Source of the DNA: Gammaproteobacteria bacterium
GTDB lineage: Bacteria > Pseudomonadota > Gammaproteobacteria > Burkholderiales > Rhodocyclaceae
Length of the DNA: 34,386 nucleotides
Assembly (NCBI GenBank): GCA_029289235.1
Contig: JARFTZ010000010.1
Location: forward strand, 1 to 34,386
Direction: 5' to 3'
Under the pieces are notes generated by a model, which was not told the origin of the DNA, made no database searches, and saw nothing but the letters and a program-made list of their open reading frames with translations. Both the position numbers and the translations under genes were made by a program. Numbering within the stretch: the first letter of the stretch is position 1; the number at the start of each line of letters is the position of its first letter. Of this stretch, positions 21,319 through 31,657 are shown piece by piece.

Positions 21319-23109
21319 ATGGCTGTCGCAGGAACGATCCGGCGCGTGGTGGCGAACGCGCTGGTTCTCGCGGTTTTCCCCGTCTTTTTTTCGCAACCCC
21401 TCCTGGCGGCATCGCTGCCCGCGGTGGAAGCCAGAAACGGTATGGTCGTTTCGTCGCAGCATCTGGCGTCGAAGGTCGGCGTCGAGATTCTCAAGGCGGG
21501 CGGCAATGCCGTCGACGCGGCGGTGGCCGTGGGGTACGCGCAGGCGGTGGTCAATCCCTGCTGCGGCAACATCGGCGGTGGCGGATTCATGACCATCCAC
21601 CTGGCAGACGGACGCGATGTGTTCCTCAATTTCCGTGAAAAGGCGCCGACGGCCTCGAGCGCGAACATGTATCTCGATGCCGCGGGGAGCGTCGTGAAGA
21701 ACGCCAGCCTGTACGGCTATCTCGCCGTCGGCGTGCCGGGCACGGTGCTCGGACTCGATACCGCGCTGAAGAAATACGGCACCCTGGGCCGCGAGAAAGT
21801 GATGGCGCCGGCGATCCGGCTGGCGCGCGAGGGCTTCGTCCTCACCCGGGCGGATACCGACATCCTCGATACGACGATCGAGCGCTTCAGACAGGATCCG
21901 GAAGCCGCGCGCATCTTCCTGCGCAAGGACGGCACGCCGCTGCAACCGGGCGACCGCCTGGTGCAGAAGGATCTGGCGAGGACGCTGGAAGCGATCGCGA
22001 AGACCGGCCCGGATGCGTTCTACAAGGGGCGGATTCCGCAGGCCGTCGAAGCGGCGGCGAAGAAGGGCGGCGGCATCCTGACCGCGGCTGATTTTGCCGA
22101 CTATTCGGTCAGCGAAAGTGCGCCGGTGACCTGCGATTACCGGGGCTACGTCTTTCATTCCGCACCGCCGCCCAGTTCCGGCGGGACGACGATGTGCCAG
22201 ATCCTGAACACGCTGGAAGGCTACGACCTAAAGAGCACGGGTTTCAATTCGGCTGAAACCGTTCATCTGATGACCGAGGCGATGCGCCATGCCTACATGG
22301 ATCGCAATACCTACCTCGGCGATCCGGCCTTCGTGAAGAATCCGCTGGAACGGCTGCTGTCCAAGGACTATGCCAAGGCGATCCGGGCGAAGATCACCGA
22401 GATGGCGACGCCATCAAGTGAGGTGAAGCCGGGCAAGTTGCCGCACGAGCCTGTCGAGTCCAAGGAAACGACGCACTACTCGATCGTGGACAAGAATGGC
22501 AACGCCGTGTCTACGACCTACACGATCAACGGCCGCTTCGGTGCGGTGGTCATCGCGCCCGGAACAGGCTTCTTCCTCAACAACGAGATGGACGACTTCA
22601 CCATCAAGCAGGGGGTGAAGAACCTCTACGGCCTGGTGCAGGGCGCAACCAACGCCATCGCTCCGAAGAAGCAGCCGCTGTCGTCGATGTCGCCGACGCT
22701 GATCACCAAGGACGGCAAGACCTTCATGGTGCTTGGTTCGCCGGGCGGCTCGCGGATCATCAGCATCACCTTGCAGACCGCGCTCAACGTCATCGATCAC
22801 GGCATGACTCCGCAGGAAGCGGTGGATGCTCCGCGCATCCACCACCAATGGCTGCCCGACGAGGTGTACTACGAAACGCGCGGCCTGTCCGCCGATACGC
22901 TCAAGGAACTCAAGGTCATGGGCTACAAGATGACCGAGCAGACGCCGTGGGGCGCGGCCGAGGTGATTCTGTACGGAGTGCCGGGGGCGGCCGGTGTGGC
23001 GCCCGCCAGTTCAGGCAACGATGGCGCGGTGTCCGGCAAGGTGCGCGAAGGGTTCATCTACGGCGCCAACGATCCGCGCCGGCCGGCGGGTGCGGCGATA
23101 GGCTATTGA
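21319..23109 (+). CDS. ggt: Gamma-glutamyltransferase
   Basis: This 596-residue periplasmic enzyme cleaves the gamma-glutamyl bond of glutathione and transfers the glutamyl group to water or amino acids. A signal peptide occupies residues 1 to about 31 (VLAVFPVFFSQPLLAAS). The large-subunit part has the GGNAVDAAVA and GNIGGGGFM blocks. Self-cleavage should occur between E383 and T384 in the sequence ETTHYSIVD, making T384 the N-terminal nucleophile of the small subunit. Downstream are the substrate-binding LNNEMDDF, SSMSPT and GSPGGSRI blocks. All catalytic elements are present and the length is normal (E. coli 580). AAGGAG precedes the ATG at the right distance. It is divergent from the exporter operon and followed by the riboswitch region. 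It probably recycles periplasmic glutathione. Confidence 0.95.
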   Translation: MAVAGTIRRVVANALVLAVFPVFFSQPLLAASLPAVEARNGMVVSSQHLASKVGVEILKAGGNAVDAAVAVGYAQAVVNPCCGNIGGGGFMTIHLADGRDVFLNFREKAPTASSANMYLDAAGSVVKNASLYGYLAVGVPGTVLGLDTALKKYGTLGREKVMAPAIRLAREGFVLTRADTDILDTTIERFRQDPEAARIFLRKDGTPLQPGDRLVQKDLARTLEAIAKTGPDAFYKGRIPQAVEAAAKKGGGILTAADFADYSVSESAPVTCDYRGYVFHSAPPPSSGGTTMCQILNTLEGYDLKSTGFNSAETVHLMTEAMRHAYMDRNTYLGDPAFVKNPLERLLSKDYAKAIRAKITEMATPSSEVKPGKLPHEPVESKETTHYSIVDKNGNAVSTTYTINGRFGAVVIAPGTGFFLNNEMDDFTIKQGVKNLYGLVQGATNAIAPKKQPLSSMSPTLITKDGKTFMVLGSPGGSRIISITLQTALNVIDHGMTPQEAVDAPRIHHQWLPDEVYYETRGLSADTLKELKVMGYKMTEQTPWGAAEVILYGVPGAAGVAPASSGNDGAVSGKVREGFIYGANDPRRPAGAAIGY

Positions 23110-23142
23110 CCAACTTTTTGCGAACGATTCTGTTTTCCGGGC

Positions 23143-23171
23143 TGGAGCTCCCCTCGTCCGAAGAGTAGAAT
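23143..23171 (+). promoter_or_regulatory. Candidate promoter for the riboswitch-led operon
   Basis: TAGAAT at 23166-23171 fits a sigma-70 -10 box; a weak -35 (TGGAGC, three of six matches) lies 17 bp before it. The predicted start, near 23178, is just upstream of the first conserved riboswitch bases, which supports the call. Confidence 0.4.
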
Positions 23172-23173
23172 GC

Positions 23174-23264
23174 GCGCTTTGAAGGGCATACCTGACTGAA
23201 AAGCAGGGACGCAAAGCCACCGGCCTAACGATTCATATCCATGGCGGCGGGGTTGCCGGACGCA
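23174..23264 (+). ncRNA. Cyclic-di-GMP-I (GEMM-I) riboswitch
   Basis: The conserved core is very clear: GGGC at 23184-23187, a short stem CCTG/CAGG, GGGACGCAAAGCC at 23206-23218, CCGGCCTAA at 23220-23228, and the hairpin with GGCGGCGGGGTTGCC at 23243-23257. In the last hairpin, GGCG/TGCC replaces the GGTA/TACC of the Vibrio Vc2 RNA, keeping the pairing. The third G of GGGC (23186) corresponds by my alignment to G20 of Vc2, which favours c-di-GMP over the cGAMP-binding variants. Outer-stem ends are approximate. The RNA lies 5' of a chemoreceptor gene and is followed by a terminator, the usual expression platform. Confidence 0.92.
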
Positions 23265-23327
23265 ATCGGAGACGATTCGCGTTCGTCTTGATCGTTGCGC
23301 CTGGATGTTGCGCAATTGCGTATATCG

Positions 23328-23371
23328 AGAAGAAGGCCTCGACCGACAAGGTTCGAGGGCTTCTTTTTTTC
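23328..23371 (+). terminator. Intrinsic terminator downstream of the riboswitch
   Basis: The stem AGAAGGCCTCGACC pairs with GGTTCGAGGGCTTCT (one bulge, one mismatch) around the loop gacaa, and seven T's follow. It lies 64 nt after the aptamer and 137 nt before the chemoreceptor ATG, so read-through is probably set by the riboswitch. I could not identify the competing antiterminator by eye, so whether ligand turns expression on or off is open. Confidence 0.85.
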
Positions 23372-23507
23372 AGCGCGCAGCGATGAGGGGTCCGGTGCGG
23401 CGGTCCCGCGGTTCGGTCGGATGCTGCTTCATTGTTTGTGTCGTTCGTCCGCAGGCCGGTCCGGTCGGCGGGTGGCTTTCCTTTTTGAAGCGATCCGGCC
23501 TCTCTCG

Positions 23508-25133
23508 ATGAAGAATCTTTCCATTGCCCACCGCATCCTCGTCATGATCGCGGTTTCCATCGTCTCACTGCTCGCGGTCGGTGCCGCCGGACTCTACGTG
23601 GCCAACCGCAGCGGCGACAGCCTTGCGCTCCTTAAGGACGACAGCCTCGCCAGCGTACGTACCCTCGCCAATGCCCGGCAGGCGTTCATGCAGATGCGCA
23701 CCATCGTCTATGCGCACATTCTCGCCGTCGATGACGACGGGAAATATATCGCCGCAAAGAACTTCGACCAGAAGGCGGCGGAACTGGCGAAACTTCTGGA
23801 AAGCTACGGCGCGTTGGTGTCAGACGACGCTGACCGGCGTCTTCTGGATCAGAATGCCGCGAACATGAAGGCCTATGTCGACGCGATGAAGGGGAAGCTG
23901 TTTCCACTGTCGCGGGCCAACGACATGGGCGGCGTCCGGGCGTTGATCTTCACCGATATCGCTCCCCTTGCCGCCGGAACCGAAAAGGGCTTCGACGAGC
24001 ATATGTCGCACAACGAGGCGCTGGCAGAAAAGGCCGCGCAGGCGGCGATCAGCGATACGCTGGCCGGCGAACTGGCCGCCCTGGCGGTAATCGTTGCCGG
24101 GGTGCTCGCGGTCGGCGTTATCGGATTTTTCCTGTTGCGCAACATCCGTGCGGCGGTCGGACAGATTCAGTCGATGGTCGCGCAGGTCGAGAGCAACCTG
24201 GATTTCACGGTGCGCGCGACCGTGAAGAACAAGGATGAAATCGGCATGACGGCGCTGGCGCTGAACCGCTTGCTGGAGAAACTCCAGGCGAACCTCCGGT
24301 CGATCGCTTCCGGCGCGCAGTCGGTTGCTTCGGCGGCCAGCCTGATGGCTACCACGTCGTCGCAGGTGGCGACGGCTTCCCAGCAGCAGAGCGAGGCTGC
24401 TTCGGGCGTCGCCGCGACGGTCGAACAGATGACGGTAAGCGTCAACCACGTGTCGGACCGTGCCGAGCAGGCGGAGCGCACTTCCAGCGAGTCCGGGGAT
24501 CTGGCGGTGTCCGGGGAGGCGGTGATCGGCAAGACGACGGCCGATATCCAGGACATCGCCGCGACCGTGCATGAGGCCGCCGGGCTGATTCACGGTCTGG
24601 AAAGGCACAGCCAGCAGATTTCCAGCGTGGTGGAGGTGATCAAGGAGGTCGCCGACCAGACGAATCTCCTTGCCCTGAACGCCGCCATCGAGGCTGCGCG
24701 CGCAGGCGAGCAGGGGCGCGGATTTTCGGTCGTGGCCGACGAGGTGCGCAAGCTGGCCGAGCGGACTACGGCCTCTACCCGGGAGATCGCCGCGACCATC
24801 GAAACGATGCGTCTCGGCGCCGAAAACGCAGTGGCCTGCATGCAAAGCGCCGTCGGCAAGGTCGGTGAAGGCGTCAGTCGAGCCGGTGAAGCAAACGAAT
24901 CAATCCGCCAGATTGGCGAGCACAGTCGCCAGACCGTGGCGATGGTCGAGGAAATCGCCTCGGCGATTCGGGAGCAGGGTGCCGCGACCAACAATATCGC
25001 AGCCCAGGTGGAACATATTGCCCAGATGTCGGAAGAAAGCAGCGCGGCGGCCGGCAACAGTGCCGAGGCCGCTCGCGATCTCGACCGGCTGGCCGCGGAA
25101 ATGCAACGCATCGTGAGCGCCTATCGGCTTTGA
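23508..25133 (+). CDS. Methyl-accepting chemotaxis protein
   Basis: A 541-residue chemoreceptor. TM1 is at about 9-32; a four-helix-bundle ligand domain of about 150 residues in the periplasm (4HB_MCP type) follows; TM2 is at about 188-211; a HAMP domain follows to about 265; and a cytoplasmic signalling domain runs to the end. The signalling hairpin tip is [41 protein letters not shown], the invariant MCP core (cited here as a landmark near residues 380-420). There is no CheR-tethering pentapeptide. No Shine-Dalgarno sequence is seen before the ATG. An upstream frame ends in an ATGA overlap with this start, which may supply coupled ribosomes. Controlled by the c-di-GMP riboswitch and terminator upstream; co-transcribed with the two genes downstream. 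Confidence 0.94.
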
Positions 25134-25153
25134 GGCGCGTTGCCTCCGCGATC

Positions 25154-25807
25154 ATGAACGACAGACAGCTGACAGTGATGACGACCCTGTCGTCCGCTCG
25201 CATCACGCCGGCGCTCGAACGCGTGCTTCAGGCACTCGCACGCCAGTCGAACATGGCGGTGACCGATATCGCCGCGCAGGCCTTTGTCGGCGTGTCGACC
25301 CTGGCTTGTGGCGGCTATATCCGGACGCTGAGGGCGCGCGGGCTGATCCACGTGAGCGGATGGCGCAAGGTCAATGGGCGTTTTTCGACGCCCCTCTACA
25401 GCGTTGGCGACAAGCCCGACGTCGAGCGGCCGCGGATCGATGAAACGAACCGGAGCGCGCCGGGGATGGATCGCATCGTCGATGTCTTGCGTGAGTTCGG
25501 CGGGTTGACCCAGCGAGAGATCGCCGAGCGTTCGGGCCTCTCGCCGCATACCGTGAAGAACAGTGGCTACCTGGATGCCCTGCTGGCCCAGGGACGAATC
25601 CACATCGCGCAATGGCGGCGGTCGCGCAACGGACCCATGTCGCCTGTGTATGTCGCCGGCCCCGGGCGCAGCGTGCCGAAGTCGGCGGTTCTGAGCAAGG
25701 ATGAGCGCAACCGTCGGCACCGGTTGCGCCGCTGTGCATGCGCCGACGGCGCCGAACTGAAGACGCAGCTTGCCGGGCTGACGGGGCGGGCACGGGATGT
25801 CTGCTGA
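25154..25807 (+). CDS. Tandem winged-helix protein, probable DNA-binding regulator
   Basis: A 217-residue protein that I cannot assign to a named family. It contains two similar units of about 60 residues: a helix-turn-helix-like stretch followed by a wing. Unit 1 (about 10-75) ends LIHVSGWRKVNGRFSTPLYSVG. Unit 2 (about 100-165) has LTQREIAERSGLSPHTVKNSGYLDAL and ends RIHIAQWRRSRNGPMSPVYVAG. The shared pattern I-H-hydrophobic-x-x-W-R, then a G and P-hydrophobic-Y-x-hydrophobic-G, marks an internal duplication. A basic tail (NRRHRLRRC) follows. The ATG at 25154 lacks a Shine-Dalgarno sequence; a TTG at 25130 overlapping the MCP stop is an alternative. It overlaps the GGDEF-EAL gene by 11 nt, so it belongs to the c-di-GMP-controlled operon. 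Confidence 0.8.
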   Translation: MNDRQLTVMTTLSSARITPALERVLQALARQSNMAVTDIAAQAFVGVSTLACGGYIRTLRARGLIHVSGWRKVNGRFSTPLYSVGDKPDVERPRIDETNRSAPGMDRIVDVLREFGGLTQREIAERSGLSPHTVKNSGYLDALLAQGRIHIAQWRRSRNGPMSPVYVAGPGRSVPKSAVLSKDERNRRHRLRRCACADGAELKTQLAGLTGRARDVC

Positions 25808-28226
25808 GTCCGCCGGGCAAAGGGCGCGCGACCTGTCCGGTGCCTTGCCGGAAGGACTCGCCGGGCACGATGACCGTCCGGTTCCGCGCAAGCGTTTGCT
25901 CGCGGCGTTGCTCACGCTCAACATCGTCGCCGTGATCGTCGCCGTCGTCGTCCTTCGCCACCTCCATGACCATACGCTTCGGGAAGCGGAAGTGCGCAGT
26001 CAGAACATCGCGCTGGCCGTCGACCTGAATCTCAGCAACGAGATCAACAAGATCGACCTGTCGCTCCGGACCGTCGTGGCCCAGTTGAACCAGCGCGTGT
26101 CGTTGCTACCCTCGCATATCGATCGGCTGATCCTGCAGGGGTTGATCCGGCAACAGCATTCGCTGCTGCCGGAAGCCGAAGCCTGGAGCGTGGTTGACCG
26201 GGAAGGTCAGATCGTAGTTCACGACGGCGACAGCGCGGCGAATTTTTCAATTGCCGACCGCGACTATTTTCAGGATCTCAAATCAGGCCGGTCGCGAGGC
26301 TTGCTGGTCTCCAGGCCGCTGACCAGCCGGCTGACGGGACAGCCGATCATCATCATCGCGCGCGCTTTCCGCGCACCGGACGGTACCTTCGCCGGCATTG
26401 TCGCGGTGCCGTTGCCGCTTTCGTTCATCGACAGCCTGCTTGCGGAGTTCGACGTCGGGCCGCGGGGCGTTTTGGCCTTGCGCGACAGGAATCTCGGCTT
26501 CATCACGCGGGTTCCGGCGCATGCGCGGACGGCAATGCCCAGGGAAGGTGAAGCCCGCGTCTCGTCGCAGTTTCAGCAGCTCGTTGCGGCGGGGAAAGCG
26601 CAGGCGGTCTATCACGCCTCGTCGCCCTTCGATGACGTCGAGCGGATCTTCAGTTTCCGGCGCTTGAGCAATGCGCCCATCCATGTGGTTGCCGGCATCG
26701 CGAAGGATGCGGTGCTTGAAAGCTGGGAGCACACCGCCTGGAGTCTTGCCGGATTCCTCGGGTTTTTTCTGGTGCTCGCCAATGCCGCGGCGGCGCTGGT
26801 GTACCGTCAGTGGCGGCGACAACGCCAGGACGCGCTGTCTCTCGCGGATAGCTATGAGCGCCTGGAGCGCATGGCGTTCTACGACGAATTGACCGGCTTG
26901 CCGAATCGCGCGCTGCTCTCCGACCGGATGCGCCAGAGCATGGCGGAGTGTCGTAGGCGAAACGGCTCGCGGCTGGCCGTCTGCTGTCTTGATCTGGACG
27001 GCTTCAAGGAGATCAACGACCGTTGGGGGCACGCCGTCGGCGATCGGTTGCTGTTCGAGGTCGCCTTGCGCCTGCGTCGCTGTACGCGGGACAACGACAC
27101 CGTTGCCCGGCTCGGCGGCGACGAGTTCGTGGTGCTCTTCAGCGATCTCGGCGATGAGAGCGATGCCTGCGAGGCCGTTTCCCGGCTGATCGACTGCGTT
27201 GGCGAGCCGTGCTCCATCGGCCCGGCCCGGCCGAAGATCGCCCTCAGCGTCGGCGTCACGCTCTATCCCTCGGGGACCGCCGAAGAGCCGGACGCGCTGT
27301 TGCGCCAGGCCGATCAGGCCATGTACGAAGCCAAGCGCAACGGCAGGAATCGCATGCACTTTTTCGATCTCGAAAGCGAGCGTTTCCTGCGCGAGCGCCA
27401 GACGCATTACGATCGCCTCGTCGAAGCGCTGGCGCAGGGGGAGTTCCGGCTGCACTACCAGCCAAAGGTCGATCTGCGCAGCGGGCAGCCGATCGGGGTC
27501 GAGGCGCTCCTGCGCTGGCAGCACCCGCAGCGCGGCCTGCTGCCTCCGTCGGACTTCCTGCCGGTGATCGAATCCTCCGAATTGACCCTGCCCGTTGGCG
27601 AGTGGATCATCCACGAAGCCTTGCGGCAACAACAGCGCTGGCGTGCACATGGCGTGAACATGCGGATCAGCGTCAATCTCTTCGCCCTGCATCTGCAGCG
27701 CCCCGACTTCGTCGAGCGGCTCCGCGACATCCTGCAGGTCTACCCGGATGGCGAACCAGGCATGCTCGAACTCGAAGTGGTCGAGACGACGGCGCTGGAA
27801 GACCTCGACGAGATTACCGCGCGCATCCGCGGCTGCATGGAGCTCGGCGTCGATTTTGCCCTGGATGATTTCGGAACCGGATATTCCTCGCTGACCTACC
27901 TTCGTGAACTGCCGGCCAGGCAGGTCAAGATCGATCGTTCGTTCGTGCGCGACATGCTCGACAACGCGAATGATCGGGCGCTTGTCGAGAGCATCGTCGG
28001 CATGGCCCATACCCTCGGCCGGCAGGTCGTCGCCGAAGGCGTGGAGACACTGGCTCATGGCGTGCCGCTGATCCGTTGCGGATGCGATTGCGCGCAAGGC
28101 TACGGGATCGCCCGGCCGATGCCGCCGGAAGATCTGCCGGGCTGGCTGGCGATATGGAGCATGCCGCCCGTATGGGCGGAGGCCGTCAGGCACGACGTCA
28201 TCTTTTTCGGCAGCGGACTCTCTTGA
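25797..28226 (+). CDS. Cache / GGDEF / EAL cyclic-di-GMP turnover protein
   Basis: This 809-residue membrane enzyme has TM1 at about 33-53, a periplasmic double-Cache sensor (about 60-305), TM2 at about 314-335, a short coil, GGDEF at about 355-520 and EAL at about 535-795. The diguanylate cyclase site is intact (GGDEF at 440-444) with an inhibitory I-site RDND five residues before it. The phosphodiesterase site is also intact: EALLRW from 569, ELEVVET, DDFGTGYSS, VKIDRSFV and VAEGVET. Both activities are therefore possible; the sensor would decide the balance. The gene overlaps the winged-helix gene by 11 nt. Since the operon is led by a c-di-GMP riboswitch, the product is expected to feed back on its own synthesis. 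Confidence 0.95.
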   Translation: MSAESAGQRARDLSGALPEGLAGHDDRPVPRKRLLAALLTLNIVAVIVAVVVLRHLHDHTLREAEVRSQNIALAVDLNLSNEINKIDLSLRTVVAQLNQRVSLLPSHIDRLILQGLIRQQHSLLPEAEAWSVVDREGQIVVHDGDSAANFSIADRDYFQDLKSGRSRGLLVSRPLTSRLTGQPIIIIARAFRAPDGTFAGIVAVPLPLSFIDSLLAEFDVGPRGVLALRDRNLGFITRVPAHARTAMPREGEARVSSQFQQLVAAGKAQAVYHASSPFDDVERIFSFRRLSNAPIHVVAGIAKDAVLESWEHTAWSLAGFLGFFLVLANAAAALVYRQWRRQRQDALSLADSYERLERMAFYDELTGLPNRALLSDRMRQSMAECRRRNGSRLAVCCLDLDGFKEINDRWGHAVGDRLLFEVALRLRRCTRDNDTVARLGGDEFVVLFSDLGDESDACEAVSRLIDCVGEPCSIGPARPKIALSVGVTLYPSGTAEEPDALLRQADQAMYEAKRNGRNRMHFFDLESERFLRERQTHYDRLVEALAQGEFRLHYQPKVDLRSGQPIGVEALLRWQHPQRGLLPPSDFLPVIESSELTLPVGEWIIHEALRQQQRWRAHGVNMRISVNLFALHLQRPDFVERLRDILQVYPDGEPGMLELEVVETTALEDLDEITARIRGCMELGVDFALDDFGTGYSSLTYLRELPARQVKIDRSFVRDMLDNANDRALVESIVGMAHTLGRQVVAEGVETLAHGVPLIRCGCDCAQGYGIARPMPPEDLPGWLAIWSMPPVWAEAVRHDVIFFGSGLS

Positions 28227-28228
28227 GG

Positions 28229-28261
28229 CCGCCATCGGCGACGGCGTGGCGTTGTTTTTTT
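28229..28261 (+). terminator. Possible terminator after the GGDEF-EAL gene
   Basis: CGCCA and TGGCG flank a GC-rich loop, and seven T's follow shortly after. The stem is only five pairs, so this is a modest candidate. If real, it separates the c-di-GMP operon from nap. Confidence 0.4.
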
Positions 28262-28329
28262 AGCAAAGATCAAAGTTTCCTCCTATCCTGACGGGTAGAT
28301 TGCCGGTTCATCGTGAGGTCTCGTGAATC

Positions 28330-28833
28330 ATGGATCCGTCCCGTCGCCGCTTTTTTGGCAGAAGCACGCGCGTTTCGCCGTTCCGGCCGCCCTGGAGCAT
28401 GCCGGAGGCTGTGTTCGTCGACGCCTGCACGCGCTGCGACGATTGCGTTTCCGCCTGCCCGACGGGGTTGTTGAAACGCGGTGACGGCGGCTTCCCGGTG
28501 GCCGACTTCACTGCGGCGGCCTGCACCTTCTGCGGCGAATGCTCGGACGCCTGCGCGACCAGCGCCATATCACGCGAACTGGCCGCGGCTCCCTGGTCTT
28601 TCTCGATTCATATCGCGGACGGCTGTCTCGCGCATCAGCGCGTCGAGTGCCGCGTTTGCGGCGAGCTTTGCGAGACGAAGGTGATCCGTTTCCGACCGAC
28701 GCTCGGTGGCGTCTCGTGCCCCGAGGTCGACCATGCCGCCTGCACCGGCTGCGGCGCCTGTCTGGCGCCGTGCCCGGTCGGCGCCATTACGCGCGTGGCG
28801 CGCCCCTCTCTTCATCCTGCGGAGTTGTCATGA
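28330..28833 (+). CDS. napF: NapF, ferredoxin-type protein of nitrate reductase maturation
   Basis: A 167-residue cytoplasmic iron-sulfur protein that assists NapA maturation. Three cysteine clusters fit [4Fe-4S] sites: CTRCDDCVSACP near 33-44, CTFCGECSDAC near 65-75 and CTGCGACLAPCP near 140-151. An extra CRVCGELC near 108 is also typical of NapF. The N-terminus has the RRRFFG sequence that NapF proteins share. It is the first gene of the nap operon, 103 bp after the GGDEF-EAL gene, and its stop overlaps the napD start (ATGA). GAGGT upstream is a modest ribosome binding site. Confidence 0.93.
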   Translation: MDPSRRRFFGRSTRVSPFRPPWSMPEAVFVDACTRCDDCVSACPTGLLKRGDGGFPVADFTAAACTFCGECSDACATSAISRELAAAPWSFSIHIADGCLAHQRVECRVCGELCETKVIRFRPTLGGVSCPEVDHAACTGCGACLAPCPVGAITRVARPSLHPAELS

Positions 28834-29120
28834 ACATCACCAGTCTGGTGCTGCGCATCCGTCCCGAAACACGAGCCGAGGCCGAAGCCGCGCTGCGCGC
28901 GCTGCCCGGCGTCGAGTGCCATCACATGAGCGACGACGGCAAACTCATTGTCACCGTCGAGGACGCGCCCGGCGCGGCCATGTCTGACACGCTGATCGCC
29001 GTTCATCGCGTGCCGCAGGTGCTGGCTGCGACGCTGGCCTACGAACACTGCGACAACGCCGTTCCAATCACCCCTATCCCGACACCGAGGAATCTGCCCT
29101 GCCAGGAGGCTCAGCCATGA
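28830..29120 (+). CDS. napD: NapD, chaperone for NapA
   Basis: A 96-residue ferredoxin-fold protein that binds the twin-arginine signal of NapA and prevents export before the molybdenum cofactor is inserted. The start [12 protein letters not shown], the middle [20 protein letters not shown] and the end of the fold ([12 protein letters not shown]) match NapD. GGAG lies upstream. Both ends overlap the neighbours by ATGA, so napF, napD and napA are tightly coupled. Confidence 0.92.
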
Positions 29121-31657
29121 CAATCAATCGCCGCGAATTCATCAAGACCCAGGCCATTGCCGCCGCAGCCGCCAGCGCCGGGATCGCGCTGCCCGCCGTG
29201 GCCCAGCAAAAGACGCCGCCGAGTTCCGCCGTGCGTTGGGACAAGGGCGTTTGCCGCTTCTGCGGTACCGGCTGCGCGGTGCTCGTCGGCGTGCAGAACG
29301 GGCGCGTCGTGGCCACCCAGGGCGATCCGGATTCCGAGGTGAATCGCGGCCTCAACTGCATCAAGGGCTATTTCCTGTCGAAGATCATGTACGGCGAGGA
29401 TCGTCTGACGCAGCCGCTCTTGCGCATGAAGAACGGCAAGTACGACAAGGAGGGTGATTTCACGCCGATCTCCTGGGACAAGGCCTTCGACATCATGGCC
29501 GAGAAGTGGAAGGCAGCGCTGAAATCCGACGGTCCGGCCGGCGTCGGCATGTTCGGCTCGGGGCAATGGACGATCTGGGAGGGCTACGCCGCCGCCAAGC
29601 TGTTCAAGGCCGGCTTCCGCTCCAACAACATCGACCCCAACGCGCGCCACTGCATGGCCTCGGCGGTGGCCGGCTTCATGCGCACCTTCGGCATCGACGA
29701 GCCGATGGGCTGCTACGACGACATCGAGCAGGCCGACGCTTTCGTGCTCTGGGGCTCGAACATGGCCGAGATGCACCCGATCCTGTGGACGCGCATCACC
29801 GACCGTCGCCTGACCAAGACCGATGTCGAAGTGCACGTGCTGTCCACCTTCGAGCACCGCAGCTTCGAGTTGGCGGACAACGGCATGATCTTCGCGCCGC
29901 AGACCGACCTCGCCATCCTCAACTACATCTGCAACCACATCATCCAGAGCGGCAAGGTCAACGAGGAGTTCGTCAAGCGCAACGTCAACTTCAAGGTCGG
30001 CGAGACGGACATCGGCTTCGGCCTGCGGCCGGCGCACGCGCTGGAGAAGGATGCCAAGTTCAACGGCTATCCGGGAGCGGACGGCAAGCCGAAGAACAAC
30101 CCGAACGACGCGAGGCCGAGCAGCTTCGAGGAGTTCAAGAAATTCGTCAGCGAATACACGCTGGAGAAGGTTTCCAGGCTGACCGGCACGCAGCCGGAAA
30201 AACTCAAGCGGCTGGCGGAACTCTATGCCGATCCGAAGAAGAAGGTCGTCAGCTACTGGACCATGGGCTTCAACCAGCACACCCGCGGCACGTGGGTGAA
30301 CAACATGATCTACAACGTGCACCTCCTGGTCGGCAAGATTTCCGAGCCGGGCAACGGGCCGTTCTCGCTGACCGGGCAGCCGTCGGCCTGCGGCACGGCG
30401 CGCGAAGTCGGCACTTTCGCCCACCGCCTGCCGGCCGACATGGTGGTGACCAACCCGGCGCACCGCAAGCACACCGAGGAACTCTGGCAACTGCCGGACG
30501 GCACGCTCAACGACAAGATCGGCCTGCACGCCGTGGCGCAGAGCCGCGCGCTGAAGGATGGCAAGCTCAAGTGCTACTGGACGACGACGACCAACAACAT
30601 GCAGGCCGGGCCGAACATCAACGAGGAGATGTATCCCGGCTGGCGCAACCCGGACACCTTCGTCGTCGTCTCCGATGCCTACCCGACGGTTTCGGCACTG
30701 GCCGCCGATCTGGTCCTGCCGTCGGCGATGTGGATGGAGAAGGAGGGCGCCTACGGCAATGCCGAGCGGCGCACACAGTTCTGGCGGCAGCAGGTCAAGG
30801 CGCCAGGCGAGGCGAAATCGGATCTGTGGCAGTACATCGAGTTCTCCAAGCGTTTCAAGATGGAGGAAGTCTGGCCGGCGGCGCTGCTCGACAAAAAGCC
30901 GGAATACAAGGGCAAGACGCTGTACGACGTGTTGTACGCCAACGGCGTCGTCAACAAGTTCCCGAAGGACGAATTGCAGAAGGTCAACGCTCACGCCATC
31001 AAGGACTACACCAACGACGAGTCCGAGGCCTTCGGCTTTTACGTGCAGAAAGGGCTGTTCGAGGAATATGCGAAATTCGGGCGCGGCCATGCGCACGACC
31101 TCGCGCCGTTCGACATGTACCACAAGGCGCGTGGCCTGCGCTGGCCGGTGGTCGACGGCAAGGAGACGCTGTGGCGCTTCCGCGAGGGCTACGACCCGTA
31201 CGTGAAGGCCGGCGAGGGCGTGAAGTTCTACGGGCACAAGGACAACAAGGCGGTGATCTTCGCGCTGCCGTACCAGGATCCGCCCGAGATGCCGGACAAG
31301 GAATTCGACCTGTGGCTGTGCACCGGCCGCGTGCTCGAGCACTGGCATACCGGCTCGATGACCCGCCGGGTCGCGGAACTGCACAAGGCGGTTCCCGAGG
31401 CGCAGGTGTTCATGCACCCGGACGACGCGAAGAAACGCAAGTTGCAGCGCGGCATGCTGGTCAAGGTGATCTCACGGCGCGGCGAGATGACCGCGCGCAT
31501 CGAGACCAAGGGACGCAACAAGCCGCCGGTCGGGCTGATCTTCGTGCCGTTCTTCGACGAGTCGCGACTGGTGAACAAGCTGATCCTCGACGCCACCTGC
31601 CCGATTTCGAAGGAAACCGACTTCAAGAAGGCGGTGGTGAAGGTGGTCCGCGCTTGA
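29117..31657 (+). CDS. napA: NapA, periplasmic nitrate reductase catalytic subunit
   Basis: This 846-residue molybdoenzyme reduces nitrate to nitrite in the periplasm using Mo-bis-MGD and one [4Fe-4S] cluster. A twin-arginine signal (NRREFIK then a hydrophobic stretch, cut near residue 30) is followed by the cluster ligands C46, C49, C53 and C81. C179 in [12 protein letters not shown] is the expected molybdenum ligand. Cofactor-binding blocks later in the chain include [27 protein letters not shown], and the C-terminal [17 protein letters not shown]. Length agrees with the family (E. coli 828). AGGAGG sits upstream of the ATG, which overlaps napD. A 134-bp gap with a palindromic repeat follows before napG. 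Confidence 0.98.

Follow-up and report, generated by a model that had tools for sequence, protein, structure and literature searches.

A cyclic di-GMP (c-di-GMP) riboswitch in a Propionivibrio genome (Rhodocyclaceae; 3.8 Mb, 63 contigs) very probably controls three genes, which encode a chemoreceptor, a DNA-binding-like protein and an enzyme of c-di-GMP metabolism. The analysed DNA, referred to here as the window, is the whole 34,386-nucleotide stretch of contig JARFTZ010000010.1 (assembly GCA_029289235.1). On its forward strand the order is aptamer, terminator, chemoreceptor (MCP), tandem winged-helix protein (WH) and dCache-GGDEF-EAL enzyme. As a whole, the locus is best explained as a c-di-GMP-responsive chemoreceptor operon under transcription attenuation that is OFF at high c-di-GMP, to which we assign a probability of about 0.57. 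Its elements are the following:

23166-23171, + strand: -10-like box TAGAAT, the proposed promoter, directly 5' of the aptamer, at which the RNA would start.
23175-23260, + strand: c-di-GMP-I (GEMM-I) aptamer (Rfam RF01051), with G at model position 11.
23257-23285, + strand: putative hairpin CGGACGC/GCGUUCG, which takes the 3' strand of helix P1 and is thus an alternative to P1.
23330-23370, + strand: intrinsic terminator between the aptamer and the first gene, from inverted repeat, folding energy and recurrence.
23508-25133, + strand: chemoreceptor of 541 amino acids (aa), with 4HB ligand domain, HAMP and MCP signalling domain (Pfam).
25154-25807, + strand: WH, 217 aa (HTH_24, AlphaFold2, gene neighbourhoods).
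25797-28226, + strand: dCache-GGDEF-EAL enzyme, 809 aa (Pfam; alignment to 4rnh).
28237-28260, + strand: weak terminator-like hairpin (7 pairs, 3 of them G-C) and T run after the last gene.

The GEMM-I aptamer had been proposed in a first-pass annotation of this DNA and was recovered by a covariance-model search. Positions 23175-23260 match RF01051 at 70.3 bits against a gathering cut-off of 35, over the full length of the model (positions 1-87 of 87; E 5e-12 when the whole window was searched with 4227 families), and this is the sole cis-regulatory RNA that cmscan placed over the gathering level in the whole window. The alignment shows the GAAA tetraloop of P2 and the conserved GACGCAAAG core (CUGAAAAG, GGGACGCAAAGCC). 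We take model position 11 to be G20 of the Vc2 aptamer, the discriminator between c-di-GMP and cyclic GMP-AMP (cGAMP), from an alignment with Vc2 and cGAMP-aptamer sequences. Because this position is a G, c-di-GMP is the expected ligand; on this tentative mapping, cGAMP as the ligand is rejected. Compared with the Geobacter cGAMP (GEMM-Ib) riboswitches, the window's RNA has the same fold but a G, not an A, at the presumed discriminator. The J1/2 numbering used in the mapping comes from PMC6274999, and the Geobacter riboswitches had at first been assigned to the c-di-GMP class (PMC9262584). In the genus, an A at position 11 is found in two other copies, which are candidates for the cGAMP type (L025 1501-1586, G010:C71, and L026 1501-1586, G005:C94). 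They lie directly 5' of genes for proteins of 785 and 749 aa, which have a GGDEF domain (Pfam 79 bits) without the GGDEF motif and EAL domains of 212 and 206 bits. The RNA switch of the window is itself an ordinary representative of its class.

Downstream of the leader, the genes are closely packed, as the first-pass annotation had described. A gap of 20 bp separates the chemoreceptor and WH genes, and the WH and GGDEF-EAL genes overlap by 11 bp. A sigma-70 promoter-like scan of positions 22900-28400 listed a single hit, which lies within the GGDEF-EAL gene (chance expectation 0.6); it listed no site 5' of the second or third gene, nor 5' of the aptamer. A single operon is therefore supported by the gap, the overlap and the lack of a listed promoter-like site before the second and third genes. 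The chemoreceptor matches PF00015 (MCPsignal, 147.4 bits), PF00672 (HAMP, 31.5 bits) and PF12729 (4HB_MCP_1, 81.6 bits), all over their cut-offs, and its start was placed at 23508 on the basis of tblastn alignments in which three relatives match from the first residue onward. In PHROG, phrog_8572, a chemoreceptor-like family of unassigned function in phage records, matches it end to end (251 bits).

We then compared 28 species' genomes of the genus, including P. soli SG131, P. dicarboxylicus DSM 5885, Propionivibrio D159 and Ca. Accumulibacter UBA704. They hold 24 c-di-GMP-I copies in 16 genomes, and four of the copies precede a chemoreceptor gene and then a WH gene. These loci, all with aptamer, terminator, MCP and WH, are the window, L029 (P. 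soli SG131), L036 (Ca. Accumulibacter UBA704) and L040 (Propionivibrio D159). A FliL-like gene stands between the chemoreceptor and WH genes in L036 and L040 (PF03748, 53.3 bits for the L036 copy); its product (L036 4623-5036; same gene in L040) has a hydrophobic N-terminal stretch. Since the three relatives keep the riboswitch and the pair with no GGDEF-EAL gene beside them, the chemoreceptor-WH pair appears to be the conserved target of the riboswitch, and the enzyme is specific to the window within this set of loci. The chemoreceptors of L036 and L040 share 77% identity with that of the window, and the L029 receptor shares 58%. In a tree of 31 chemoreceptor rows (without support values), the L029 receptor (row L140) groups with receptors that lack an adjoining WH gene or riboswitch, and the same leader therefore precedes two distinct receptor lineages. 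A similar leader occurs in another Rhodocyclaceae genus (L158, reverse strand from 7143) before an unrelated gene, which by eye looks like that of a lipoprotein.

A pattern for the aptamer subtype (up to 3 mismatches) matched seven of 395 family genomes, four of which are the window's, G004, G005 and that of L158; in the remaining three the genes downstream differ, and inspection by eye showed no terminator of this kind. Among 53 c-di-GMP-I loci with flanks of up to 1.5 kb, a window-type chemoreceptor lies near the RNA in four, exactly those described above. This set comprises all 24 of the genus and 29 further loci from a family search in which 148 of 297 genomes matched (L103 has only 254 nt downstream); the window's chemoreceptor served as the query, and a very dissimilar chemoreceptor could escape the count. 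The idea that c-di-GMP-I RNAs commonly precede chemoreceptors here is not borne out by these numbers. The window's own genome has two c-di-GMP-I RNAs and 19 chemoreceptor matches, and its second riboswitch (L003 8264-8349; G000:C32:50263-50348) precedes the gene of a 776-aa DUF1631 protein (PF07793, 499.7 bits). That c-di-GMP riboswitches before chemoreceptors are known, as the first-pass annotation stated, is supported by one review, PMC6366702. The known chemoreceptor gene behind a c-di-GMP riboswitch belongs to another phylum and shows the same arrangement, with no WH or GGDEF-EAL partner mentioned in the passage that describes it.

The terminator, also named in the first-pass annotation, was found again as an inverted repeat 70 nt 3' of the aptamer. 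Its 13-nt arms (23330-23342 and 23353-23365) are 92% complementary with 10 nt between them, T's follow to 23370, and the final 50 nt of the leader have a folding energy of -24.9 kcal/mol. A terminator hairpin is present in each of five leaders (the window, L029, L036, L040 and L158). A simple terminator scan did not list the window's copy on the + strand, probably because its loop range is 3-8 nt only. At the other end of the leader, TAGAAT or TAAAAT occupies the same position in the four riboswitch-MCP-WH leaders, and L158 has a -10-like sequence too, as judged by eye. The -35 region, likewise by eye, is poor in the window and better in L029 (TCGACA, 18-bp spacer). The TAGAAT box is not among the hits of the sigma-70 scan, which was run at 9 of 12 matching positions. 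Helix P1 is weak and imperfect: -7.5 kcal/mol for the window, and between -3.8 and -6.9 kcal/mol for the four relatives. The helix competing with it, of 7-8 bp, starts at the identical nucleotide in all five leaders and shows both-sided changes at two pairs (by eye). It was reached by 367 of 2000 shuffles for the window, and by 112, 176, 203 and 31 for L029, L036, L040 and L158, respectively. The putative hairpin thus has moderate support from the five-leader set and is not significant in the window alone.

In none of the five leaders do the terminator and the aptamer with P1 have a strand in common. The same holds for Cd1, the OFF switch that precedes the flgB flagellar operon in Clostridioides difficile (PMC6366702) and whose aptamer and terminator can coexist; in the ON switch pilM the two are mutually exclusive (PMC9262584). 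For this reason we modestly favor OFF at high c-di-GMP over ON. Transcription would start at the -10-like box abutting the aptamer. At high c-di-GMP the aptamer would fold and the terminator would halt transcription before the chemoreceptor gene, while at low c-di-GMP the polymerase would read through the MCP, WH and GGDEF-EAL genes. The main target would be the chemoreceptor with WH, and in the window's strain the same switch would also adjust the Cache-GGDEF-EAL enzyme. The likeness to Cd1 extends to the aptamer class, the coexisting intrinsic terminator 3' of the aptamer and motility-type genes downstream. Unlike Cd1, the window has one chemoreceptor unit instead of a flagellar operon, an antiterminator was not found, and a c-di-GMP enzyme is encoded within the operon.

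The opposite direction, in which c-di-GMP prevents termination and the chemoreceptor, WH and enzyme are made at high c-di-GMP, for example for surface sensing when attached, seems rather unlikely to us. ON switches of the same aptamer fold exist, Bc2 for c-di-GMP (PMC6366702) and pilM for cGAMP (PMC9262584), and the P1-competing hairpin is possible in all five leaders, where the ligand could rearrange the linker. Against it stands the separate strand usage of the terminator in the five leaders, whereas the pilM terminator uses an aptamer-stabilising strand (PMC9262584).

Several points weigh against attenuation with an OFF response, and they begin in the leader. The best pairing of P1 in the window uses 23167-23174, in and just past the -10-like box. 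As this pairing lies upstream of the start set by the box, the RNA would have to start further upstream, or P1 is something else; drawn as they are, the predicted promoter and P1 are mutually incompatible. An antiterminator search in the five leaders, which tested pairing of the terminator 5' arm, found no candidate that outdid shuffled arms, a result that leaves room for a weaker or multi-strand antiterminator. The best candidate pairs this arm with the aptamer's GCGGGGUUGCC and was matched by 117 (window), 97 (L029), 178 (L036), 191 (L040) and 56 (L158) of 300 shuffles, and the best partner anywhere upstream was reached by 233, 208, 220, 237 and 83 of 300 in the same order. In all five leaders the equilibrium fold contains the terminator. 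Moreover, PMC6366702 cautions against carrying over switch direction from one species to another.

Other results concern the enzyme. No GGDEF-EAL gene adjoins the chemoreceptor-WH pair in L029, L036 or L040, and its own genome contains at least 18 matches to the enzyme at E <= 1e-40, counting the enzyme (with 36 of 58 candidates scored), so that one enzyme need not set the c-di-GMP pool. The feedback loop put forward in the first-pass annotation loses ground with both results: as the three riboswitch-bearing relatives have no such gene beside the pair, it is not conserved, and for the window it is a predicted, possible loop.

The enzyme itself may both make and break c-di-GMP. Its Pfam matches are dCache_1 (46.3 bits, a marginal pass of the cut-off of 45), GGDEF (161.9 bits) and EAL (232.3 bits), and GGDEF is the only NCBIfam domain model over its cut-off among the matches listed (25 of 29). 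The RxxD I-site (RDND) and the GGDEF and EAL catalytic motifs are intact, as the first-pass annotation had read them; the sequence and the alignment to 4rnh show EALLRW, SVN, ELEVVE, DDFGTGYSS, KIDRSF, AEGVE and QGY. Residues 356-780 align to 4rnh ('Motility regulator', Pseudomonas aeruginosa), which we take to be MorA, at 330 bits with the catalytic motifs kept. The 4rnh chain covers the GGDEF-EAL half only, and the sensor half of the window's protein is one dCache. Were the enzyme mainly a phosphodiesterase, the loop would be positive and would sharpen the motile state; were it mainly a cyclase, the loop would be negative.

The trio of genes, which the first-pass annotation did not recognise, was searched for in other genomes. 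The chemoreceptor-WH-GGDEF order also occurs at G010:C48 (WH 62% identical), at G010:C26 and in P. dicarboxylicus (G002:C17 = L150), where WH is truncated to an open stretch of 138 aa; a trio unique to the window is thereby ruled out. None of these three trios has a c-di-GMP-I RNA, and the full set including the riboswitch was seen in the window only, among the loci covered. At four places in G027 (L197-L200), a chemoreceptor gene adjoins a GGDEF-EAL gene with neither WH nor riboswitch present; in L197-L199 no open reading frame (ORF) of 110 aa or more lies between them, and L200 has one of 180 aa. From these recurring pairings and trios it follows that parts of the trio associate repeatedly. 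L150 also contains two closely spaced cobalamin riboswitches on the minus strand, at 1186-1450 and 2654-2876; the closer one precedes the chemoreceptor gene by about 1.4 kb.

These neighbourhoods bear on the possibility that the enzyme is incidental, that is, that the riboswitch is kept for the chemoreceptor and WH and the GGDEF-EAL protein has been attached as a further reader of that sensory setting, either regulated separately or of negligible effect on the pool. We regard this as a tentative alternative, at somewhat less than even odds. It agrees with the three riboswitch-bearing pairs that lack the enzyme gene, with the many related enzymes of the genome and with the four places in G027. 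The overlap with the WH gene, the lack of a listed promoter-like site before the enzyme gene and the recurrence of the trio order in G010 and P. dicarboxylicus speak against it.

The least familiar element is the middle gene. Its product had been called a probable DNA-binding protein and indeed has a DNA-binding-like winged-helix fold. HTH_24 (Pfam) matches at 33.9 bits against a cut-off of 21.9, and AlphaFold2, from 27 aligned sequences, predicts HHHEE-HHHEE followed by a C-terminal helix (mean pLDDT 88.9, pTM 0.69). The basic C-terminal segment is conserved, by eye. Fold matches in the PDB are generic (ScpB, 3w6j and 4i98; Pol III and TFIIIC subunits; SelB), with TM-scores normalised by WH length of at most 0.30 among the 50 PDB matches listed. 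The best Foldseek matches among viral models are uncharacterised phage proteins (top E 1.6e-10, 19% identity). Tandem winged-helix proteins of Burkholderia phage Maja and BCSR52, also uncharacterised, align with WH over 217 and 208 columns (BFVD models); at 16-17% identity their TM-scores remain below 0.4, so the two winged-helix units are differently placed. By sequence, WH stays under the cut-off of every NCBIfam model, its PHROG matches are weak (best E 9.1e-5), and a profile search of PDB sequences at E <= 1 returned two TFE chains only (best E 0.18) and no ScpB. Membership of the ScpB or TFE families is not supported, the likeness being one of fold and not of sequence. An assignment as a phage or plasmid gene by sequence was dropped, since searches of 50,697 phage and 72,556 plasmid records gave no match at E 1e-5. 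In IMG/VR, 17 stretches fit a sequence pattern and tblastn confirmed none.

The distribution of WH is narrow. A sequence search of 297 family genomes gave matches in 21, weak ones in three of these; an order-wide draw of 300 genomes gave a full-length WH only in the window's own genome and partial matches in four others; and a scan of genome contigs found 27 WH loci, all labelled as Rhodocyclaceae or unplaced Betaproteobacteria/Pseudomonadota. The own genome has two WH genes, each directly behind a chemoreceptor gene. We collected 35 unique loci, leaving out L067-L069 (31.8-44.2 bits), of which 33 are evaluable after exclusion of L106 and L132 (<200 nt upstream). A chemoreceptor gene shares the apparent operon with WH in 20 of the 33 and is absent in 13. 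It lies upstream in 16 of the 20, downstream in two, and upstream with an intervening GGDEF gene in two; among the 16, two pairs span a FliL-like gene and two (L131, L133) are fragments at a contig end. A genus-wide recount, which overlaps this set, covered 20 WH copies in 13 of 28 genomes; of the 19 that are evaluable (L207, with its upstream sequence missing, was excluded), 14 have a chemoreceptor with WH. A GGDEF/EAL gene is near WH on the same strand in six of the 33 loci (the window, L150, L108, L115, L122 and L148); in L148, a metagenome-assembled genome of Dechloromonas, the GGDEF-EAL gene is about 1.6 kb from WH with two ORFs between, and the locus was not counted as the same trio.

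The WH-linked chemoreceptors are highly divergent: in full-length alignments they show 31-77% identity to that of the window. Over 16 of the 22 two-protein loci, distances among receptors correlate with those among WH proteins (Mantel r 0.52, as high in 1 of 5000 permutations); excluded were L150, L185 and the four loci with a short receptor piece (L137, L218, L220 and L221). Such a correlation would be expected for joint inheritance, and shared species history alone would suffice to produce it. On these neighbourhoods, the WH family is a recurrent chemoreceptor partner in Propionivibrio relatives, and its fold together with this linkage leads us to infer that WH is a DNA-binding regulator of the chemoreceptor unit. 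Searches of the open-access literature returned no description of the operon or of WH proteins linked to chemoreceptors.

It is doubtful that WH is instead a phage-derived passenger, or a protein-protein adaptor with winged-helix folds, and no transcription factor. Such a role would suit its nearest structures, which are unnamed phage proteins, the missing NCBIfam and good PDB sequence matches, and the 13 evaluable loci without a chemoreceptor. ScpB, an adaptor protein, is moreover among the PDB fold matches. Opposed to it are the HTH_24 match, the conserved basic segment and the linkage to divergent chemoreceptors in 20 of the 33 loci, which points to a function tied to the receptors.

Beyond the enzyme gene, the weak terminator-like hairpin is one of six terminator-like sites in the region, little in excess of the shuffles (mean 3.9, sd 2.1). 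Further 3' on the same strand (28330-31657) follow genes for a 4Fe-4S ferredoxin and a molybdopterin oxidoreductase, presumably NapF-like and NapA-like, respectively.

Taken as a chemoreceptor under riboswitch control, the operon is of a known general kind; less usual are the enzyme within the controlled operon and the chemoreceptor-linked winged-helix family. No paper combining Propionivibrio, chemotaxis and c-di-GMP was found in the open-access literature. With a c-di-GMP enzyme gene in the operon that it controls, a messenger-sensing RNA could tune its own messenger. A more far-reaching reading, which we consider improbable, is that the phage-like tandem WH family in Rhodocyclaceae is a dedicated chemoreceptor partner, providing a DNA-bound output or receptor-specific expression control, and that in one lineage the riboswitch gates receptor, partner and enzyme together. 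If true, a chemosensory unit would be wired to the second messenger at the RNA, DNA and enzyme levels. In any case, for relatives of Propionivibrio and Accumulibacter the WH family is a testable candidate for a protein that connects individual chemoreceptors with DNA.

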